This document shows, one piece after another, positions 3,554 through 17,855 of a stretch of 24,974 nt of DNA. How positions within the stretch are numbered: the stretch's first letter is position 1; the number at the start of each line of letters is the position of its first letter. The notes under the pieces are model-generated. The model was not told the origin of the DNA and ran no database searches. It saw only the letters and a program-made list of their open reading frames with translations. Position numbers and translations under genes: made by a program. The DNA is from a virus, in the IMG/VR virus record IMGVR_UViG_3300009702_000079, positions 1-24,974 of that record; one strand, given 5' to 3'.

Positions 3554-3875
3554 TTTCTTCTATCCTCTTCAGGCAGATTTGATATTTCCTAGCATATTCC
3601 CTTTCCATTTCTTCAGCAGTAAACCCCGCGGAATTTACAATGTTCCCCCAAAATTGAAGGATGTCTATTATCTCCTCCCTTAGTTTTTGATGATTGATTC
3701 TCTTAGTTGTTTTCTTCCAAGGCTTCCAGTTTATCTCGTCCAGAACTTCTGTAGCTTCTACTATCAAAGCCAGAAGGTTTTCTTTAATAGACGCCTCTCA
3801 CCCATTCCTATCCATGGGGTTACCCATCTTTTGATTCAATAGTTGTTGTTTATTGAGTAAAGTTTTGATCTGCAC
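3546..3875 (-). pseudogene. MazG/dCTPase-like all-alpha NTP pyrophosphatase interrupted by an in-frame TGA
   Basis: The 3' part of this frame has the all-alpha pyrophosphatase signature: EATE (ExxE) followed 24 residues later by EIID (ExxD), with NWKPWKK between and a terminal AxKYQ..LKR helix, as in MazG, type 2 dUTPase and T4-type dCTPase families. Such proteins hydrolyse (d)NTPs to monophosphate plus pyrophosphate. An open stretch of 73 codons begins at TTG 3767, too short and lacking both the first helix and any SD. Reading the same frame upstream recovers ten more codons (EASIKENLLA), a TGA at 3798-3800, then 25 codons back to a GTG at 3875 preceded by GAGGTG, overlapping the end of the asparagine-synthetase-like gene. 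The upstream piece (LLNKQQLLNQKMG) fits the missing first helix. So one gene seems split by a single stop. Mutation, sequencing error and readthrough are all possible. Confidence 0.65.
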
Positions 3876-5256
3876 GTTCACACCTCGCTTTTTCTAGTTC
3901 ATAAAAAACGTCACATAAGTAACGGACCCACTTCAAACTCCCCTGTTCAAGAACTAAGGGATGTTTGAGAGCTTTCTTTTTCCTGTTCAAAATTTCCTTT
4001 GGAATTATATCCGAGAAAATTTCTTTCAGGAATTTCTTTTCCTTTCTTTCCTCCCAGGATAAACCCAAGGCCATACCAATGACTCTATGACTTAGGAAGG
4101 GACAACGGAGTTCTATCGTATTAGCCATGTTCAGTTTATCTAACCGGGGAAGGTGATAGTAAACTAGTTCCTGAAAGATATCTGAATACTGACTATCGTA
4201 TTCTAAAATTCTTTTATATCCTCCAAACAATTCATCTGCTCCATCCCCTGAAAGAACTACCTGAAATCCTTTTTCCTTGATTCCTTCCGCTAGTTGATAT
4301 TGGTTAATCATTGAACCTAGGTCCACAGGGGATTCGTTATAATATAAAATTTCAGAAAGAGCGGATACCCTATTCTCTAACTTCACAACAGGGATATCTG
4401 AAGGGATGTCTAGATAGTTTAGAAATTCTTCCTCTCCGTTATTACTATGAAAGCAAGTAATGTTATGAGTGAGGTTGGAAGCTATCTTGTAGATGATACT
4501 GGAATCTAATCCCCCCGATAGAAGAAGGGAGATAGGAACATCAGAAGCATCCAATCTATCAAACACGGCCTGCTCTATTGCTGGTCGTATCAATCTCTTA
4601 TTCTTATTAACTTCTATTGTTCCTCCAGGATATCCTCTTGGATTTCCGATCTCCCCCGTTTTTAAATCTATCAGTAAACAAACCCCCGGATCTAATTTAT
4701 AAACTCCTCTATAGGGGGTTTCGATACTTAAAGGGTACCCCCATTTCTTAATAGAAGAAAAATAGAGGGGATTGAAAATTTCTTTTAAGTTTTTCAAATC
4801 CCAATATCCACTCATTAAATTGGCTAAAGGTTTTATCTCAGAGGATATGGTAAGTTCGGCTCCTCTTCCACAGTAGTAGAGGGGCTTCTTTCCCAATGGA
4901 TCTATAAAAACCCAAGCCCTACGGTCTTTAACAAAAATTGCTGACCACATTCCCTCAAAAAAACTGAACGCTCTTTCCCCATACTTAACCCAGTATTCGG
5001 CTAGGACTTCTATATCCGATTCAGCTTGATTGTTTAATCCTTCATAATTGTAAATTTCTCCCACGAAAAGAATCGTCCATCCTTTATATTCATAGGGCTG
5101 ATCGAATTTCTTATCCAGTCCAACAATGGGGAGGCGAACATGTCCCAGGTACGCCCCATCTACTTCTTTGGAACTGCTCCGAATTCCTCTGTGGGAAATT
5201 GCTTTATTCATATCATCTACTATTCCGGGAAGCATTGTAAAATTTAATCCGCACAT
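3850..5256 (-). CDS. Asparagine-synthetase-like glutamine amidotransferase (AsnB family)
   Basis: 468 residues, two domains. The N-terminal class II glutaminase starts MCG, leaving Cys1 of the mature enzyme as nucleophile, and keeps RLPIV (Arg41) and the Asp of ESDIEV. The C-terminal ATP-pyrophosphatase domain has the PP-loop SGGLDSS at 247-253 and SGDGADELFGGY at 336-347, then RCPFL near 384. AsnB enzymes adenylate a carboxylate and amidate it with ammonia from glutamine. One odd residue: the conserved NGEIYN is VGEIYN (Val65), losing the Asn of the oxyanion hole, so glutamine use may be weakened. It is shorter than E. coli AsnB (about 554 aa). It is two bases from the DUF1599-like gene and among DNA-modification genes, so the acceptor could be a modified nucleotide instead of aspartate; that is inference. 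Confidence 0.9.
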   Translation of the reverse strand: MCGLNFTMLPGIVDDMNKAISHRGIRSSSKEVDGAYLGHVRLPIVGLDKKFDQPYEYKGWTILFVGEIYNYEGLNNQAESDIEVLAEYWVKYGERAFSFFEGMWSAIFVKDRRAWVFIDPLGKKPLYYCGRGAELTISSEIKPLANLMSGYWDLKNLKEIFNPLYFSSIKKWGYPLSIETPYRGVYKLDPGVCLLIDLKTGEIGNPRGYPGGTIEVNKNKRLIRPAIEQAVFDRLDASDVPISLLLSGGLDSSIIYKIASNLTHNITCFHSNNGEEEFLNYLDIPSDIPVVKLENRVSALSEILYYNESPVDLGSMINQYQLAEGIKEKGFQVVLSGDGADELFGGYKRILEYDSQYSDIFQELVYYHLPRLDKLNMANTIELRCPFLSHRVIGMALGLSWEERKEKKFLKEIFSDIIPKEILNRKKKALKHPLVLEQGSLKWVRYLCDVFYELEKARCERADQNFTQ

Positions 5257-8025: not shown

Positions 8026-8167
8026 GTATCTCCTCTTGTATTGCTTTTTCATTATCTATTACATTTTCCTTTCTTTTAGTTAGAGTGGGGGAAAAAGGAT
8101 CTAGTGCCTCGCAATAGTCTAGGCATTCGCAGTCTGGGTGAATACACTTTTCACTAGCCATTTTCAT
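8012..8167 (-). CDS. Small Cys-rich hypothetical protein (49-51 aa)
   Basis: This frame reads MKMASEKCIHPDCEC and continues LDYCEALDPFSP, ending EEIHENG. The N-terminal Cys set (C-x4-C-x-C-x4-C) could hold a metal ion. AGGAG precedes two in-frame ATGs (8167 and 8161). The stop overlaps the start of the nuclease gene, so it fills what would otherwise be a 130-base gap. Both the entry and exit junctions carry the same 24-base sequence. Function unknown. Confidence 0.6.
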   Translation of the reverse strand: MKMASEKCIHPDCECLDYCEALDPFSPTLTKRKENVIDNEKAIQEEIHENG

Positions 8168-8342
8168 ATATCTCCTCTATCCTTTCTTTCATTCCTTTAT
8201 TGCATTCACAAGCATAACGCATATTGCTATAAATCATCCTCTCCAGCGCTGCTTCCCTAGCTGTAACGGCCTCACCCTTATACCTTTCATTTTCCAAAAC
8301 ATCTAAAAGTTCTGCAAACATCAATTCAATACTGAATCCCAT
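8154..8342 (-). CDS. Small hypothetical protein (62 aa)
   Basis: 62 residues, predicted mostly helical and acidic (MGFSIELMFAELLDVLENERYKG at the start, ending RIEEIYENG), with a CEC pair in the middle. It starts 12 bases after the DNA polymerase stop behind a GGAGG (minus-strand reading of 8343-8353) and overlaps the next small gene. No family recognised; position suggests an accessory to polymerase or nuclease functions, without direct evidence. Confidence 0.6.
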   Translation of the reverse strand: MGFSIELMFAELLDVLENERYKGEAVTAREAALERMIYSNMRYACECNKGMKERIEEIYENG

Positions 8343-8353
8343 CTTACACCTCC

Positions 8354-10168
8354 TTAGTCTTTGTATCTAATCGCACTACCCCAACTCTTCTTGCCTATCT
8401 TCCCATCAGAAATAAGAGGAACATCCAACTCAATTGAGTCCATAGCTTCTTTCATCTTTTTCATTTCCTCCTTCTCCCTGCCCTTCTCGCAGCACACAAC
8501 GATTTCATCGTACACTTGTAGAACTATGCGACTTTCTTTTGAAAGAGATTTATTAACTCTAATCATTGCTTCTTTAGTAATGTCTGCAGCACTACCTTGA
8601 ATGAGATAGTTCATCATCTTGTAGTAGAAGTCCCTACCATGCTTAGGTTTTTCTGCATAGTATTGCCTACCGCCCCAAGTATAAATTGGTTCCCCTTTCC
8701 TCGTATGGAGTGTTAGAGTACGGTTCAATTCCCTTACTCCGGGGAGAGCTTTCAGATGGGCAGCTAACAACTCTTTTGCTTCCTCTTCTGTCCCTTGTAT
8801 TTGATTAGCTGTCCCAGGCACTCCCATCCCATACACCACGCCGAAGTTTACAATCTTAACGTGCTTCCTTTTATAGTCATGCCCCGAAGCATCCAGAATT
8901 AAATCGTGGACTAGGGCATGGGCATCCATAGTGGGGTCGTTCAGATAGGCCTGATACAATGTTCCCTCTTCGTAGTGGGCCAGTATCCTCAGTTCTTGTT
9001 GGCTATAGTCCCGAATTAAAAATGAACATCCCTCGTCGGGGATAAGGTAGTCGCGCATACTTAGCAGCAACGGATCCTCTTGATTCCGAGGGACGTTCAA
9101 AAAGTTTGGATGAGTGCTACTGGGACGACCTGTTCTGGTGCCAAACACTTTACCATGCTCGTCCGGTGTCCTCACCTGATTGAAGGAGGGATAAACTCTT
9201 CCATTGAATTCTTCAGCAGATTTAATCCAAGGCAAACAAAAAGTTGAAATATAAGTTTGGAGGATGCTGTATCTACTTAATTCCTGAACTAACTTTTTGT
9301 CACTACATCCTTTGATTAAATTTTCTTTAGAGGTACTTTTCTGACCCCTAGGAAATGTTTCACTAGGCTTAGTGTAATACCAAACTTTGATTTTCTTATT
9401 TCTATCGAGAGCTTCTGCAAGCTGTTTTCCGCTTTCAATATCCAACTCTTTTGTTTTCAATCTTTTTCTTATCCAATCCGCTCTTACAATGTTAGCCCTT
9501 ATCGCCGCATTGGTATCCCTTTTTAACTTAGGCAAAGCGATCCGAATCCCCTTGGTAGACATATCCTCGAAAAGGGGAAGACATTTCTTTTCCCTTTCGT
9601 ATGCTTCTTCCATTCCTATTTCTTTTATCTTGGGGTAATAGAATTCAAAGAGCTTTTCTGTTCGGATCGTATCCCCCCGAGCATATTTCCCCACTAATTT
9701 CCCAGGCGCTTCAGCTATGTGTGCAGCCCAGGGGTTTTTCTTTGTTTCCTTTTCCCCCTTGTAGATATGTTTCAGGATCCAATCCCTCAGTTCGTCCTGT
9801 TCCTCCGGGGGCATATCCAAATACTTATCCGCTAGGGGTTTAAGACTTAGTGAGGACTCACGAGGATCAAACAAGTAAGCTAGGAACAAAGTGTCATGAA
9901 ATTCTTTTGGCAGGGGAATTTTTAAATGGACAGAAGCAACGTACATATCAAACGCTGCGTTATGAAACACCGGAATAGATTCTTTGAAAATTTTTCTTAA
10001 GATTCCAGTAGCTTCTTTCTTTGTAGAATTATTCCCGGAGGGATGTCCCCAGGATAGATACCTATGCCTTCCGTTAATTTTTACTGACACTCCCACAGGT
10101 ACAGGGGGATAGACAGGTCTGAATTGAATTCTCTTTGTTTCAAAGTCAACAGGAATAATCTTTTTCAT
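8354..10168 (-). CDS. Family A DNA polymerase with 3'-5' exonuclease domain
   Basis: 604 residues. N-terminal DEDD exonuclease: VDFET (Asp8, Glu10), AAFDM (Asp74) and YARGDT (Asp166). Polymerase domain: motif A RDYSQQELR with Asp387, motif B (O-helix) spanning 434-447 with Arg434, Lys438, Phe442 and Tyr446 in the spacing of E. coli Pol I, and motif C VYDE with Asp554 and Glu555. Motif C has Tyr where Pol I has His (VHDE). Phe at the 762-equivalent position predicts discrimination against dideoxynucleotides. There is no 5'-3' nuclease domain, as expected for phage replicases of the T7/SPO1 kind. This is the phage's probable replicative polymerase. It must accept hydroxymethylated dCTP if the modification model is right. 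Confidence 0.97.
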   Translation of the reverse strand: MKKIIPVDFETKRIQFRPVYPPVPVGVSVKINGRHRYLSWGHPSGNNSTKKEATGILRKIFKESIPVFHNAAFDMYVASVHLKIPLPKEFHDTLFLAYLFDPRESSLSLKPLADKYLDMPPEEQDELRDWILKHIYKGEKETKKNPWAAHIAEAPGKLVGKYARGDTIRTEKLFEFYYPKIKEIGMEEAYEREKKCLPLFEDMSTKGIRIALPKLKRDTNAAIRANIVRADWIRKRLKTKELDIESGKQLAEALDRNKKIKVWYYTKPSETFPRGQKSTSKENLIKGCSDKKLVQELSRYSILQTYISTFCLPWIKSAEEFNGRVYPSFNQVRTPDEHGKVFGTRTGRPSSTHPNFLNVPRNQEDPLLLSMRDYLIPDEGCSFLIRDYSQQELRILAHYEEGTLYQAYLNDPTMDAHALVHDLILDASGHDYKRKHVKIVNFGVVYGMGVPGTANQIQGTEEEAKELLAAHLKALPGVRELNRTLTLHTRKGEPIYTWGGRQYYAEKPKHGRDFYYKMMNYLIQGSAADITKEAMIRVNKSLSKESRIVLQVYDEIVVCCEKGREKEEMKKMKEAMDSIELDVPLISDGKIGKKSWGSAIRYKD

Positions 10169-12078: not shown

Positions 12079-12825
12079 TTAAGAAACAGAAATGAACTTC
12101 TTCTTCAAGTCGTAGTGAATATATAACCACTGACCACCATTTTCCAAGAAACTACCTACAGTCTTATTTTTCCTGTAAAGTTCAAACATCCGATGAGAGA
12201 TAGTTCCTTCCCTCTTTGGATTTCCCTTCACCAGGATCTTAATCTTGGCAGTCCTGCTGATAGCAGACTTTCGTCCCTTTGAAGAAGTTGCTGCCTTTTT
12301 TGCAGGAGCAGTCTCCTTCGGAGCGGCTTTCTTAGTAGTCGCTTTCTTTGTAGGAGCAGTTTTCTTCGGAGCGGCTTTTTTTGCGGGAGCCTTCTTCTTG
12401 GAAGTTGCCTTCTTGGTTACAGCTTTCTTGATTGTGGATTTTTTGTTCATGGTAATGTACTCCTTCTTTTCGTTTGAAAGTAATTCCCCATATAAATTCT
12501 GAGGAATATTTTTGACGCACTTACTTGCATACTCCTTTATTAACTTCTTATCTTTTACATGATACCCCCTTTTGGTTTCTGTAATCTTTAAATCCCGGAA
12601 TATTAAATCCCGAGTCGTAGAATAGAGTTTGACAAGTTCTTGCTCATAACTCCAATCCTTCCCTGTAACTTCAGTCAAAAACTGTTGGAGCTTGTTATGC
12701 CCCATTTCACAGATCAGCCTACACAACCCCAGAGCATAGAAATTTCCAGAATCTTTTTCTGCAAAAATGGGGAGCTCGAACCCCAAGTCCTCGAAGTAAG
12801 TTTTTATCATCTCCACGTTAGTCAT
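12079..12825 (-). CDS. Two-part protein: unknown N-terminal domain, histone-H1-like Lys/Ala linker, conserved C-terminal domain
   Basis: 248 residues. Residues 1-125 are a helical domain (MTNVEMIKTYFEDLGFELP, later GKDWSYEQEL and FRDLKITET) that I do not recognise. Residues 126-190 are low-complexity Lys/Ala/Pro/Thr repeats (KKAAPKKTAP, KKATTKKAAP) like histone H1 or bacterial HU tails, which bind DNA non-specifically. The last 55 residues (KILVKGNPKREGTISHRM ... FLENGGQWLYIHYDLKKKFI) match a small domain often seen at the C-end of phage and bacterial hypothetical proteins. Codon 126 is an ATG (12450) with AAGGAG nine bases upstream, so a separate 123-residue histone-like form may also be made. 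The start at 12825 overlaps the stop of the small membrane protein gene. Confidence 0.75.
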   Translation of the reverse strand: MTNVEMIKTYFEDLGFELPIFAEKDSGNFYALGLCRLICEMGHNKLQQFLTEVTGKDWSYEQELVKLYSTTRDLIFRDLKITETKRGYHVKDKKLIKEYASKCVKNIPQNLYGELLSNEKKEYITMNKKSTIKKAVTKKATSKKKAPAKKAAPKKTAPTKKATTKKAAPKETAPAKKAATSSKGRKSAISRTAKIKILVKGNPKREGTISHRMFELYRKNKTVGSFLENGGQWLYIHYDLKKKFISVS

Positions 12826-13640: not shown

Positions 13641-13889
13641 TTATTCACAGTCATAGTTTGAAATGAACAGAGCTACGATCGTTCCGTTCCTTCGTTGAAG
13701 TAAGTAAACGTCCCCGGGTCCGTTGGGATAATCCACAAAAACAAAAGCACTATCCCCCTGAGCTTCCCTGCTAATACTTAGATCGATGCCCTCTAGGGTA
13801 TCACCCAGCATCTTATAGGCAACATCAAAGTCAGCAGTATGAAAATTGAACCGGGTATTTTCATCTAGAAATTTTTGTATTTTTTTCAC
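13641..13889 (-). CDS. Small hypothetical protein (82 aa), GTG start
   Basis: 82 residues beginning KKIQKFLDENTRFNFHTADF and ending GTIVALFISNYDCE; mixed alpha/beta, acidic. The GTG at 13889 has GGGAGGG upstream and overlaps the TGA of the previous gene (CTGTGA), showing translational coupling. No recognised family. Confidence 0.65.
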   Translation of the reverse strand: MKKIQKFLDENTRFNFHTADFDVAYKMLGDTLEGIDLSISREAQGDSAFVFVDYPNGPGDVYLLQRRNGTIVALFISNYDCE

Positions 13890-14392
13890 AGTATTCCCTC
13901 CCGACTTCCCGTCCTCATTGCTTTCTTGATTTCATTCAGATCCTGAATCATTTCCTGCATTGTATAGGTCTTAGATTTTTTGATTTCTTCTATACGATCC
14001 AGAGTGGTGTACTCCTCCACTTCCCTTTTCACATCCTTCCAATATTTACCGGAATATGACTCAATATCCTCTTTAGAACAATCTGCAACAGTCCGAACAA
14101 TTTCATGGGGTAGGGTAGGATATGCTTTGCGTATCTTTACCATGTTTATCATTCTTTCTGCTACTACTTCTAACAGGTCACTTCTGGTTAGATTGTAGTT
14201 GTCTTTCATCACCGAGAAGTTCCGGCCGATCTTATCCCCTTCTCCAGCTACTTTCACATCGCAATTAGACCACGCTCGCCAGTGATTTTCAGGACGTGAG
14301 TTCTCCCATGCTCCATCGCTAATTTGACCTACGATTTCGCCTTCAAAAAGTATTTTCTGATTTTCATTTCTCAGAGTTAGTGTTGCAGTCAT
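13886..14392 (-). CDS. Conserved phage hypothetical protein (168 aa)
   Basis: The start is the ATG at 14392 preceded by AAAAGGAGATACATC; the frame is open to 14428 but that extension has no SD and enters the structured RNA block. Residues 1-60 (LRNENQKILFEGEIVGQISD, GAWENSRPENHWRAWSNCDV) are a beta-rich conserved segment that I recall from other phage hypothetical proteins. The rest is helical and acidic with VAERMINMVKIRKAYP and an end that overlaps the next gene. It may bind a ligand or DNA through the aromatic-rich segment, but no function can be claimed. Confidence 0.7.
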   Translation of the reverse strand: MTATLTLRNENQKILFEGEIVGQISDGAWENSRPENHWRAWSNCDVKVAGEGDKIGRNFSVMKDNYNLTRSDLLEVVAERMINMVKIRKAYPTLPHEIVRTVADCSKEDIESYSGKYWKDVKREVEEYTTLDRIEEIKKSKTYTMQEMIQDLNEIKKAMRTGSREGIL

Positions 14393-14420
14393 GATGTATC
14401 TCCTTTTGATTAGTAACGCG

Positions 14421-14961
14421 AAGCGCACTCCGAACGAAGAACGCTTTGAGCTACCGGCTCACGTGTCACCTGTTACGTGGGATTTCTGTTTACAACGTAA
14501 CAGCGCAAGCCATTCGCTCGGTGGGATAGTAGCTATCCGGCATGATCGGAACTAATAAGCTCCCCCGTATACATCCCAGCAGTTATCGCATGGTAACGAT
14601 CTGACACTGGATACAGGTTTCCCCCACCCTCCCGAGTATAGCGCCGGGTTCGCTTCAGGACTGCAGATATTTCAGTGGTGGCTGCCGTAGCTATTTCTTG
14701 TCCCCTTTCCGCAGTTATCACGCTTGGTGATCTGGCACGTAACGGATGGACGCCACCCCTACTTCGGGTCATTGTCCTCACCTTAGTTGCCTGTAGGTTT
14801 GGTTCTGTCGGTGTCTCACGACTGCATCCCTCCTACATTCCCTTCGGTGGCTTCCTTATGCACGATATCCCTTACCTTGCTTTTTGGAAGACTGGGGCAG
14901 TTTTTACGCTGTGGTAAACTGGCACCCCTGAACTACAGGACTATTGTCCCATAGTTAGAAA
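14421..14961 (-). ncRNA. Large structured non-coding RNA candidate (~530 nt)
   Basis: This block lies between two genes, is visibly more GC-rich than its AT-rich flanks, and contains no convincing gene. Many local stems can be read directly (plus coordinates): AAGCG 14421-14425 with CGCTT 14442-14446; TGAGC 14447-14451 with GCTCA 14457-14461; nine perfect pairs CTGTTACGT 14470-14478 with ACGTAACAG 14495-14503; GGATAG 14524-14529 with CTATCC 14533-14538; and TGTAGG 14792-14797 with CCTACA 14832-14837 enclosing GTCG/CGAC. Further stems include CCCG/CGGG, ATCAC/GTGAT, CCTG/CAGG and CAGTTTAC/GTAAAAACTG near the right end. A TATAAT box stands upstream on the minus strand. Size and phage setting recall the large ornate RNAs (GOLLD, ROOL), but I cannot match it to any. 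Strand is inferred from the promoter and neighbours. Confidence 0.65.
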
Positions 14962-14977
14962 ATAAAGTAAATATTTA

Positions 14978-15006
14978 ATTATAACTCTAAGTTATTGATT
15001 TTTAAC
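14978..15006 (-). promoter_or_regulatory. Possible sigma70-type promoter for the structured RNA
   Basis: Minus-strand TATAAT (14983-14978) is a perfect -10 box in a very AT-rich stretch. A weak GTTAAA -35 (15006-15001) lies 17 bases upstream, within the end of the primase gene. Transcription would begin near 14970, just before the first stem of the structured block. Confidence 0.5.
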
Positions 15007-16986
15007 GAATTTAGATTTTTTTCCCTTCATAAACACTAGCGAGCCCTCATAATTGGCGCATCTTTGCCCGTGGCTGGCTTTCTCCCAGTGCTTACAGTTA
15101 CGCAGTGCATATAAGCGCTTTGAGCCAGTGCTTGTTTTAGTCATAGCTAGTTGAGGAAATCCAAAACGTCTTAAGCTCTTGCTCATCGCAATGTTGCTTG
15201 TCCTTTTCTCTCCGTTGTAATCATACAGCTTGACGATTTCCTCAATAGTAAATAAGTCCCGATCTATAGGAGAACGGTCAAAGCGTAAAAGGGAGTCAGG
15301 ATCCACCCGCATAGATTCCAAGAACATGTCAATATCGCTCATACTAATGAGCCGCATATTTTCTTTTGATCTTGTTTCAGGGGAGGGGTCGAGAGGATAG
15401 AAATCTTTTAGATTAACTCTATGCAGTAAGTGATAAAACAAAGCCGCTGGTCCGTCCCCATTTTTCCATTCATTTAATCTGCGATAGAAATCCAACGATA
15501 ATTTTTCATTTGGTACTTCGCACACGGCAACTCTTCTATCACTTTGTTCTACGAACCAAGCATCGGGTCTGTTTGAATTTAAGTAGTAGTTGATACAATC
15601 TCGGATGATATGCTGAGGCTGGAATTTCACGTTCACTGTTATCTTAGTTCTTGTGATCATCCTTTTTATTCTGTCCGCTTCCTTCCGACTGTTGCTCCCT
15701 GTTATTTCCTCCCCCATGATAAACTGTTTCCCAACGCACCACTCATTGAACTGACTGTGTAAATCTTCCTCCCCGACTTCTTGGTAATTTTCTCCGTAGA
15801 TCTTACTCATGATTTCCCCAATAAAACTTTTTCCTGTTCCGTGTATTCTTCCATGCACTAGAACGCAGGTATAAAGTTTCGTCCCGGGATATTGTATGGG
15901 GTAGGCCAGCCATTTCATAAACCATTCTTTAAATCCCTTTTCCTTACTAAAGAGAAATTCCAACAGTTCGTCCCAGAGTTTTATGTTTCCTCTTTTCGGC
16001 TCGCAACCCCAACCTTTCCAAGAGTTGATATAGTTTTTCCCTGGGATGATTAAATCCTTGCCCGGTTCATAAACTAATTTTCTATGAACTCTTCGGCACG
16101 GCCACTTCATCCACTCCGAAGCTGCATTCAATTTTTTTAGTTTGTTATCTATCTCCACTGTTATATGACGATCGGAGTAAATCGTTCCTACGAGAATTTC
16201 TTTGTTGGTGAGGATCCCTGTTTTGAATTGGAATATGGAAGGCGGTTCCTCAAGGACAGCTATTTCTTCGTTAAGGTCCCAGAGCTTTGAGCTTAGAATA
16301 TACTCTTCTGATTCTAGTTCCTCAAGTTCTTCAGGACCGTTTTCAATTAGGAAATCATCAAGGCCTACTTTTTCTCCGTCTGGTCCCGGCGGTAGGAATC
16401 TGATGTATACGATGGCGCCCAGGTTAGTTAGTTCTTTAGCTAGTGTGGACAGAGCCATTGAGACGTTTGGATTATCTTTCAGGTCGCTGTCAAAGATAAG
16501 TTCTACGTTTCTATTTTCCCACTGGATTTTATAGAAGTCTTCTATTAAGGATTTTCTTTTCTTCTTACTTCTAAAGGACCACACTCCTCCGAGTCCTATT
16601 GTAGCCAACCCTTCCTCACAGGCTTTAGCGGCTTTCTTTTCCCCTTCTGTTATTATTAGTGGGGTATCAACATCTTTGAGGATTTCTTTCCAGCTTAACA
16701 AAGGAGGGAAGTATAGGTGGGGGTCTGTATTCTCAGGTTGTGAATAACGGATCTTCTTCCCCGCTCCTGCAAAGGAAGAAGGTTGTTCTAAATATCTGAC
16801 ACGGAAAAAGCTACTGACTTTTCCTGTTATTTCAAAGTAGGGAATCTTATATGCAGTTAAAGACTTCCCAGTTATTTTTTTCGTTTCCTCTTGTTTAAGA
16901 CTTTTTAATTTTAGTTTTTTAATATGTTCTTTTCTTAGACCACTTTTTTCTAAGTCCCTTATGACTAATTTCTGAATATTCCTCAT
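14992..16986 (-). CDS. TOPRIM primase/polymerase-type protein with superfamily 3-like helicase domain
   Basis: 664 residues. Residues 40-180 look like DUF3854: FFRVRY and YSQPENTDPHLYFPP, then the TOPRIM-like strand LIITEGEKKAAKA (Glu115) with GLGGVW, and LIFDSDLK (Asp166, Asp168). The central region has a Walker A VHGRIHGTGKSFIGEIM near 371-387, a Walker B-like QFIMGEEI, and NSRKEADRIKRMITRTKITVN followed by NSNRPDAWFVEQSDRRVAV, an arrangement of the phage DUF5906/D5-like helicases. The C-terminal 100 residues are probably a winged helix plus a Cys-His-rich tail (CKHWEKASHGQRC). This is the phage primase-helicase that would load at the nearby repeat region. It heads the minus arm, and its SD lies in the pseudoknot described at 16990-17064. 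Confidence 0.88.
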   Translation of the reverse strand: MRNIQKLVIRDLEKSGLRKEHIKKLKLKSLKQEETKKITGKSLTAYKIPYFEITGKVSSFFRVRYLEQPSSFAGAGKKIRYSQPENTDPHLYFPPLLSWKEILKDVDTPLIITEGEKKAAKACEEGLATIGLGGVWSFRSKKKRKSLIEDFYKIQWENRNVELIFDSDLKDNPNVSMALSTLAKELTNLGAIVYIRFLPPGPDGEKVGLDDFLIENGPEELEELESEEYILSSKLWDLNEEIAVLEEPPSIFQFKTGILTNKEILVGTIYSDRHITVEIDNKLKKLNAASEWMKWPCRRVHRKLVYEPGKDLIIPGKNYINSWKGWGCEPKRGNIKLWDELLEFLFSKEKGFKEWFMKWLAYPIQYPGTKLYTCVLVHGRIHGTGKSFIGEIMSKIYGENYQEVGEEDLHSQFNEWCVGKQFIMGEEITGSNSRKEADRIKRMITRTKITVNVKFQPQHIIRDCINYYLNSNRPDAWFVEQSDRRVAVCEVPNEKLSLDFYRRLNEWKNGDGPAALFYHLLHRVNLKDFYPLDPSPETRSKENMRLISMSDIDMFLESMRVDPDSLLRFDRSPIDRDLFTIEEIVKLYDYNGEKRTSNIAMSKSLRRFGFPQLAMTKTSTGSKRLYALRNCKHWEKASHGQRCANYEGSLVFMKGKKSKFVKNQ

Positions 16987-16989
16987 TTC

Positions 16990-17064
16990 CTCTTCTCCTT
17001 TCTATAAAAGATTCAGCAAGTCCACTCGGAGGAAAAGGAGAAGAGAACCCCCGAGTAAACTTGC
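16990..17064 (-). promoter_or_regulatory. Leader hairpin with anti-SD loop: pseudoknot over the primase ribosome binding site
   Basis: In the minus-strand leader of the primase, GCAAGTTTACTCGG (17064-17051) pairs with CCGAGTGGACTTGC (17029-17016), leaving a 2x2 internal loop. The hairpin loop contains CTCTTCTCCTTT (17045-17034), which is perfectly complementary over 12 bases to AAAGGAGAAGAG (17001-16990), the primase SD two to three bases before the ATG. A loop pairing with sequence downstream of its own stem is an H-type pseudoknot and would hide the SD. Seen directly in the sequence; regulation of primase translation is inference. Confidence 0.75.
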
Positions 17065-17105
17065 CGAACCAAACCGGATATTTCGCTATTGCTCCTCCTC
17101 AAAAA

Positions 17106-17122
17106 TACAATGGCCTATTGTA
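17106..17122. promoter_or_regulatory. Short dyad, possible operator
   Basis: TACAAT and ATTGTA form a six-base inverted repeat around five bases (GGCCT), about 120 bases upstream of the primase start in the leader/promoter region. It could bind a dimeric repressor or form a small hairpin. No copy is seen elsewhere in the divide. Confidence 0.3.
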
Positions 17123-17154
17123 AACGCCTCCCCACTAGCACACACGCATAAAGT

Positions 17155-17229
17155 GTTAGTCTAAGCCCTTGATCCTACAGCTATTGAAATAAAGCCCTTA
17201 GTGCAGCAACACTGGGGCCGTAGACTAAC
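17155..17229. ncRNA. 75-nt structured element closed by a perfect nine-pair stem
   Basis: GTTAGTCTA (17155-17163) and TAGACTAAC (17221-17229) are perfect inverted repeats. Inside, GCCC (17194-17197) with AGTG then pairs with CACT and GGGC to make a second stem around CAGCAA. AAGCCCTT occurs twice (17163-17170 and 17192-17199), so either copy could pair with the GGGGC, giving two alternative folds. It resembles a compact riboregulator or protein-binding site. The strand is unknown. It is tRNA-sized but lacks D, anticodon and T arms. Confidence 0.5.
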
Positions 17230-17239
17230 TATTTATTGA

Positions 17240-17264
17240 GGGGGTTTTTTGCTGTTTTTGGGGG
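17240..17264. repeat. G/T mirror repeat
   Basis: GGGGGTTTTTTG and GTTTTTGGGGG flank CT, a near mirror-symmetric purine-poor/G-run sequence. Such sequences can melt or form unusual DNA structures near origins. A descriptive call. Confidence 0.4.
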
Positions 17265-17281
17265 TAAACCGGGTTGAATAA

Positions 17282-17324
17282 GGGTAAAAACTAAAAAAAG
17301 AAAGGGTAAAACTAAAAAAAGAAA
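17282..17324. repeat. Tandem direct repeat, two copies
   Basis: GGGTAAAAACTAAAAAAAG plus AAA (17282-17303) is followed at once by a copy with one A fewer (17304-17324). The A-rich strand and the position between the early leader and the iteron block fit a DNA-unwinding or protein-binding element of an origin. Confidence 0.7.
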
Positions 17325-17537
17325 TGGGGAAAACAGGGGGTAATTGCAGCTTTTTGCATTTCTATAAATTAACGCTTTACAAAAAAACGGGTCGATTTGG
17401 GGAAGTTACCCCTGTAAAACAGCCAAAAAGAGGGTGGAAATTGGAGAAAAGAGCTTGGAAAAGGGCAAAAATAACCCACAATATAATTGTTCTTATTATC
17501 TATAAACTTAATGATATCAGGAACTTAGTTTTTTTGG

Positions 17538-17777
17538 GTATACGCTTTTTTTACGCTTTTTTTAAAACCGTAACCAGCTAAGTTGCTGATTTTTATCGTT
17601 AGTTACGAGTTACGGTTTTACTACGCTTTTTTGCATAGGTCTTTAGAGAATAACTTAGGGTAACAATTCCCCCTACCCCCCTAAAAAAGCGTAGAAAAAG
17701 CGTAACTCGTAAACTTCCCTTTGAGATCAACAACTTACTGGGTTACGCTTTTTAAAAAACCGTAGAAAAGCGTATAC
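17538..17777. repeat. Large inverted repeat with iteron-like motifs: probable replication origin or operator region
   Basis: Two ~96-bp arms, 17538-17633 and 17682-17777, are near-identical inverted copies around a 48-bp centre. Outer ends GTATACGCTTTT and AAAAGCGTATAC are perfect, as are inner TTACGAGTTACG (17603-17614) and CGTAACTCGTAA (17701-17712); both pairs share the centre 17657.5. Between them TACGC-T7-A4-CCGTAACC matches its partner at 21 of 24 positions. TACGCTTTT occurs at 17541, 17552, 17622, 17683, 17695, 17744 and 17765 (both orientations), and TACGGTTTT at 17564, 17611 and 17754. Lying at the divergence of the two arms and next to the primase gene, it is a good candidate for the phage origin, for operators of both arms, or for both. 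The binding protein is unknown. Confidence 0.8.
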
Positions 17778-17800
17778 TAAAATTACACAAATGTCCCACC

Positions 17801-17849
17801 CTAGCTGCACTATGCAGGACGAGCGCCCCATTGTGCAGGCTAGTATAAT
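17801..17849 (+). promoter_or_regulatory. Probable late promoter with overlapping dyad
   Basis: TATAAT at 17844-17849 is a perfect -10 box, with its predicted start at about 17856, exactly the ATG of the first late gene. No good -35 is seen at 17-base spacing, which suggests an activator or phage factor. CTAGCTGCAC (17801-17810) and GTGCAGGCTAG (17833-17843) form an inverted repeat with one extra base directly upstream, a likely operator or activator site. Confidence 0.55.
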
Positions 17850-17855
17850 TCCTCT

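Follow-up and report, generated by a model that had tools for sequence, protein, structure and literature searches.

A large structured RNA with repeated bulged hairpin modules among the replication genes of two related phages

Two related phages share, within their replication clusters, a family of folded RNAs built from repeated hairpin modules. One of its two certain members lies in the window, as we call the whole stretch analysed here (a complete IMG/VR virus record of 24,974 bases, without end repeats); the other belongs to a relative, G001, and a third phage, G002, is an uncertain member. To our knowledge, very few large structured phage RNAs have been described, and no ornate one has a settled function. 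That general kind of RNA is already known; the hairpin-module family itself looks undescribed.

In the window, a minus-strand gene series runs from 16986 to 210, with the terminase, portal and capsid genes on the opposite strand. Its sole large gap, 14429-14991, is non-coding. As an earlier note on this DNA had claimed, the block is GC-rich (52% G+C against 41.8% for the whole record, within the top 0.2% of 541-base windows) and holds no convincing gene: its open reading frames have no Pfam match. Six-frame comparison with the corresponding blocks of G001 and G002 gave only short, weak chance matches in differing frames; with no frame conserved, we rejected a protein-coding gene. The RNA is best read on the minus strand, from about 14970 to 14405, co-oriented with the preceding primase and the early genes that follow; the strand was assigned because of its better fold, together with the module and synteny evidence. 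The position amid replication genes suggests early expression.

Three other features of the record deserve mention. The 869 bases between the divergent primase and terminase genes (16987-17855) are AT-rich, with many TACGCTTTTTT repeats and a 30-nt inverted repeat (17603-17632/17683-17712, 93%), and G001 and G002 have gaps upstream of the primase at the same place; this is probably a replication origin or control region. The replication arm also carries an unusual cargo, an asparagine synthase with a glutamine amidotransferase domain (3850-5256, minus strand), and a protein with a long lysine/alanine/proline-rich, histone H1-like tail (KKAPAKKAAPKK..., 12079-12825, minus strand).

Table 1. Features of the RNA, its surroundings in the window, and the ribozyme of G002.
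Feature	Position	Strand	Basis or remark
DUF3854/DUF5906 primase-helicase	16986-14992	-	first gene of the minus-strand series
Candidate promoter, TTAAAA-16-TATAAT	14978..15005	-	10/12 consensus matches; overlaps the primase stop codon
Structured RNA, whole (ends approximate)	14405..14970	-	gap, minus-strand fold, modules common with G001
5' hairpin, AACUAUGGGAC-AAUA-GUCCUGUAGUU	14931..14956	-	minus-strand fold and constrained fold
Module u1, GGGG-UGC-CAG-UUUAC-loop-GUAAA-AA-CUG-CCCC	14894..14928	-	repeat and module pairing
Second internal repeat, copy 1, UAAGGAAGCCACC; then UGCAGUCGUGA at 14816-14826	14846..14858	-	repeat search
Module u2, CCG-(UUACG)UGC-CAG-AUCAC-loop-GUGAU-AA-CUG-CGG	14709..14745	-	repeat and module pairing
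Second internal repeat, copy 2, UACGGCAGCCACC; then UGCAGUCCUGA at 14655-14665	14677..14689	-	repeat search
AUAC-bulge hairpin, CCUGA-AGCG-AACCCGG-CGCU-AUAC-UCGGG	14631..14659	-	shared with G001
Module u3, CCAG-UGU-CAG-AUCG-loop-CGAU-AA-CUG-CUGG	14576..14610	-	repeat and module pairing
3' hairpin, long, interrupted (4+9+9 pairs), containing the 9-pair stem	14448..14519	-	constrained fold, stem count
Final hairpin ahead of the next gene's ribosome-binding site	14421..14446	-	constrained fold
Next gene, ATG 14392, ribosome-binding site AAAAGGAG at 14407-14400	13886..14392	-	distantly related to Bacillus phage G gp666
PolA-family polymerase	10168-8354	-	minus-strand series, after smaller genes
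Helicase-like gene	7119-5695	-	minus-strand series
Type III hammerhead ribozyme, full CUGAUGA/GAAA core	G002:C1 48433-48490 (L358; L357 934-991 -)	-	E 2.8e-6

The dense local pairing reported by the earlier note is real. The block has 17 perfect stems of at least 5 bp (loops of 3-25), where shuffles average 10.3 +/- 3.8; among the stems it had named, the nine-pair one (14470-14478/14495-14503) and the six-pair one near 14792-14837 (TGTAGG/CCTACA) are both present. A single nine-pair stem of this sort nevertheless occurs in 12 of 300 shuffles (4%), and the whole block folds with a z of -1.70 on the minus strand (+0.55 on the plus strand), so the case for an RNA cannot be rested on folding energy. 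The long 3' hairpin is a possible processing or stabilising element. One of its arms, 14467-14479, can pair either with the 9-bp partner 14495-14503 or with 14736-14748 ahead of module u2 (13 nt, 85%), a dual pairing that may represent an alternative fold. The two copies of the second internal repeat are collinear, with spacings of 161-187.

The decisive feature, strong evidence for a structured RNA, is a three-copy module that was overlooked before, when no strand had been named either. A minus-strand sequence of about 28 bases occurs as GTGCCAG..GCGTAAAAACTGC, GTGCCAG..GCGTGATAACTGC and GTGTCAG..GCGATAACTGC. Aligned by hand, all three copies follow one plan, in which an outer stem leads over a 5' UGY bulge to CAG/CUG and then to an inner stem of 4-5 pairs, with a 3' AA bulge. 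Among the copies the stems vary, while the bulges and CAG/CUG are constant. No further copy was found elsewhere in the window, nor any in 1000 shuffles.

Because plain similarity and Rfam drew a blank on the window RNA, we gathered phages with related primases and screened two batches, together 89 whole records, for TGCCAG-N(8-24)-AACTG, a pattern in which pairing is not demanded. Three matches fell within 290 bases on one strand of G001, the record whose primase is also nearest to that of the window (50% identity). Inner stems of 4-5 pairs form in all three, and none of the 47 other pattern matches has an inner stem of at least 4 pairs. The G001 RNA (15750-16256, plus strand) contains these three modules and a degenerate fourth copy. 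Over the seven copies, three from the window and four from G001, all 28 inner-stem positions are paired, which 2 of 5040 permutations equal; two of the copies are equivalent in this count because their arms are identical. The outer stems of the five copies with four-base arms are paired at 20 of 20 positions (1 of 120 permutations), evidence that is weaker since the arms were picked by eye and the bulge length is variable. Covariation in relatives, to which the earlier note had looked for support of its stems, is found in the module stems of the window and G001. Clusters of the module are rare: a structural scan of 2.96 million bases returned the window, G001 and one collagen-like coding repeat only, and among the matches listed from a pattern search of genome contigs (at least 120) there was no cluster.

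A second hairpin is shared. In both phages a stem of five pairs is separated by a four-base AUAY bulge in the 3' strand from a stem of four pairs, which closes a loop of seven bases, and the G001 counterpart (CUGGA-AGUG-AGUUGGG-CACU-AUAU-UCCAG) also stands between modules 2 and 3. Three of its nine pairs are altered on one or both sides between the two phages and all are still paired, as expected of compensatory change. The AUAY-hairpin pattern has 37 matches in IMG/VR, with modules nearby in G001 only. The order of elements is identical in the two RNAs, and so is the setting: in G001 the non-coding block lies between the primase (8034-10040) and relatives of the window genes at 11865-5695, PolA among them; as in the window, one strand carries them all. 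The synteny primase, RNA, replication genes, PolA therefore holds in both. The G001 block folds with a z of -3.47 against shuffles. At the 3' end of its RNA is a perfect 22-pair hairpin (L312 2770-2818), of the RNase III-site type and without a U-run.

Plain alignment of the window RNA with G001 yields a score that 28 of 300 shuffles equal, which is not significant; the case hence rests on modules, order and covariation. With blastn, the window RNA had no match in phages and plasmids and the G001 RNA none in phages. Single-protein scans of IMG/VR with the primase and the downstream gene found nothing, and IMG/VR patterns derived from exact u2, from the AGCCACC..UGCAGUC repeat or from an over-specific module gave chance matches only. 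The collections were searched by patterns, and more distant members may have been missed. Since a short module pattern found the family where blastn and Rfam miss it, similar RNAs may well have been overlooked in phage genomes.

Could the block be a relic coding region or a GC-rich insertion with chance stems, and no functional RNA at all? The modest whole-block z and the frequency of the nine-pair stem in shuffles would agree with this, but the clustering of modules and their covariation between two phages do not, and there is neither a conserved frame nor a Pfam match. The G001 relative already disfavours this reading, to which we give the least credence of all. The place between primase and PolA-family gene in two phages, with a length of ~550 nt, also recalls an RNA-based replication origin, whose transcript would prime DNA synthesis like ColE1 RNA II or some mycobacteriophage prophage non-coding RNA; RNA-based phage origins do exist (PMC7157519). 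This phage, however, has its own primase and a likelier origin in the 869-base repeat-rich region, no RNA I-like antisense unit was found, and the repeated hairpins would be left without explanation. We regard such an origin as very unlikely.

In G002 (primase 46%), a block of some 770 bases, GC-rich and holding no more than one short frame, occupies the matching place. Its local resemblance to the G001 block has a score reached in 1 of 300 shuffles; for the window RNA the figure is 155 of 300. No module was found in this block, which counts as an uncertain homologue of the window RNA. Its last part, directly before the next gene's ribosome-binding site, is a hammerhead ribozyme (Table 1), which at 37.5 bits falls under the Rfam gathering score of 48.5 and has a complete core. 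Among 59 records searched, G002 alone carries a hammerhead, the 58 others having none; in the window and G001 neither the CUGANGA...GAAA core nor a match to the Rfam model was found. At the matching position G001 has its 22-pair hairpin and the window RNA its long interrupted hairpin. The GC-rich gaps after the primase in the other relatives followed up had no Rfam match, and a 465-base gap in L054 was rejected as an RNA: it reads as a gene running off the locus end.

The TATAAT box that the earlier note assigned to the block is present, on the minus strand, in a candidate promoter with a predicted start near 14970. As a promoter it is weak evidence, because promoter scans of the region return candidate sites at chance level. 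No terminator was found after the window RNA, an anatomy that an mRNA leader would equally have. Among the relatives found for the protein of the gene that follows, the only named one is Bacillus phage G gp666 (35%); large virus contigs carry a few more (QISDGxW motif). The gene after the RNA differs between the window and G001: the RNA is therefore not bound to one gene, and this speaks against a switch dedicated to a single gene.

The main rival is a cis-acting leader of the early operon, in which the repeated hairpins of the nascent RNA would bind RNA polymerase or a phage factor, for put-like antitermination along the long minus-strand operon or for control of that operon's translation. 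The missing terminator and the place ahead of a long operon keep it alive: the RNA has a possible promoter just before it, abuts the ribosome-binding site and lies directly upstream of the tightly packed minus-strand series down to 210, much as the bulged stem-loops of HK022 put lie downstream of early promoters (PMC9378689). Yet put is ~70 nt with two stem-loops, against ~550 nt and many domains; in G002 the self-cleaving ribozyme that separates the matching block from the next gene would cut a leader off; and the next gene is not the same in the two phages. On these grounds we consider a leader somewhat unlikely.

Our preferred reading, with a probability of about 45%, is a processed RNA that would act in trans through several protein-binding modules, a function that we infer from the sequences. 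An RNA of ~550 nt would be transcribed from the minus strand just after the primase gene, in the early replication cluster. It is built round three or four bulged hairpin modules and one AUAY-bulge hairpin, their order kept while the paired letters change. A structural element at the 3' end may lead to processing and separate the RNA from the downstream mRNA; the long hairpin of the window, the 22-pair hairpin of G001 and the hammerhead at the matching place in G002 could be alternative devices to this end. Once freed, the RNA would act in trans. The modules, with constant bulges and variable stems, may be repeated docking sites for a phage or host protein, and three to four of them per RNA could make a multivalent scaffold or decoy that gathers or titrates several protein copies in early infection or genome replication.

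Such a trans-acting RNA is supported by module clustering, pairing, covariation of the AUAY hairpin, synteny, the folding of the G001 block, the G002 hammerhead and the differing downstream gene. Against it count the single clear relative, the lack of a terminator, promoter matches at chance, and a hammerhead-bearing block tied to G001 and not to the window RNA. Put at its broadest, and more tentatively, it may represent a new class of large phage RNAs from the replication cluster, with several copies of a bulged protein-binding hairpin and a 3' end that either RNase III-type hairpins or a hammerhead would release, acting in trans as a multivalent scaffold or as a decoy directed at a protein of the host or the phage. 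The clear modular design means that a module can be cut out as bait and its partner found directly, and the hammerhead at the matching place in G002 is a lead on how such RNAs gain defined ends.

How does this RNA compare with known ones? The earlier note had proposed GOLLD, ROOL or an undescribed class. With Rfam 15 there is no match at gathering threshold and none to GOLLD, ROOL or OLE up to E=10, nor do their covariance models match in G001; these families are not supported. The other half of the proposal holds up: given a covarying relative and no kept frame, the RNA looks like a large structured non-coding RNA of an undescribed phage kind. A GCGGAAAGGGG stretch made us consider a group I intron, on which Rfam was then blank; a self-splicing intron was rejected, as no group I or II model matches up to E=10 and the primase C-terminus is normal, as in relatives.

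GOLLD and ROOL in phages are often close to tRNA islands. The window RNA resembles them in being large, densely structured, phage-encoded and of no settled function; it differs in lacking a covariance-model match and a tRNA island (there is no tRNA in the 24,974-base window), in its place in the replication cluster and in repeating a small bulged module three to four times. GOLLD, ROOL and OLE form homo-oligomeric RNA complexes (PMC12286853), and an oligomerising ornate RNA, unrelated in sequence, might work as a similar RNA cage. The similar size (659 nt for a ROOL example, PMC12286853), complex fold and phage origin of the window RNA would suit, as would the want of an obvious protein partner, and the repeated modules could be RNA-RNA docking sites; the blank Rfam search, the missing tRNA island and the replication setting make a cage improbable.

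Sponge RNAs of the CsrB/RsmZ type use repeated hairpins as multivalent binding sites, and by analogy the repeated hairpins here are candidates for the same role. The constant parts, however, are UGY and AA bulges with no loop GGA, and a CsrA sponge was rejected as GGA is not enriched (15 in 566 nt). VIPR guide RNAs have 9-16 tandem YNNGG repeats (PMC13142463); no GGYNN tandem run was found in the window RNA, and this identity was likewise rejected. With HK022 put, whose RNAs are bulged stem-loops downstream of early promoters (PMC9378689), the window RNA shares such stem-loops and a place close to where an early phage operon begins; the ~70 nt and two stem-loops of put, set against ~550 nt and a matching G002 block with a self-cleaving ribozyme, do not fit in size or architecture, and we rejected identity with put. 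Finally, tandem phage hammerheads have been proposed to cut long phage transcripts (PMC3088659). In G002, the type III hammerhead adjoining the matching block resembles these phage and prophage ribozymes, whereas the window and G001 RNAs carry long 3' hairpins instead.
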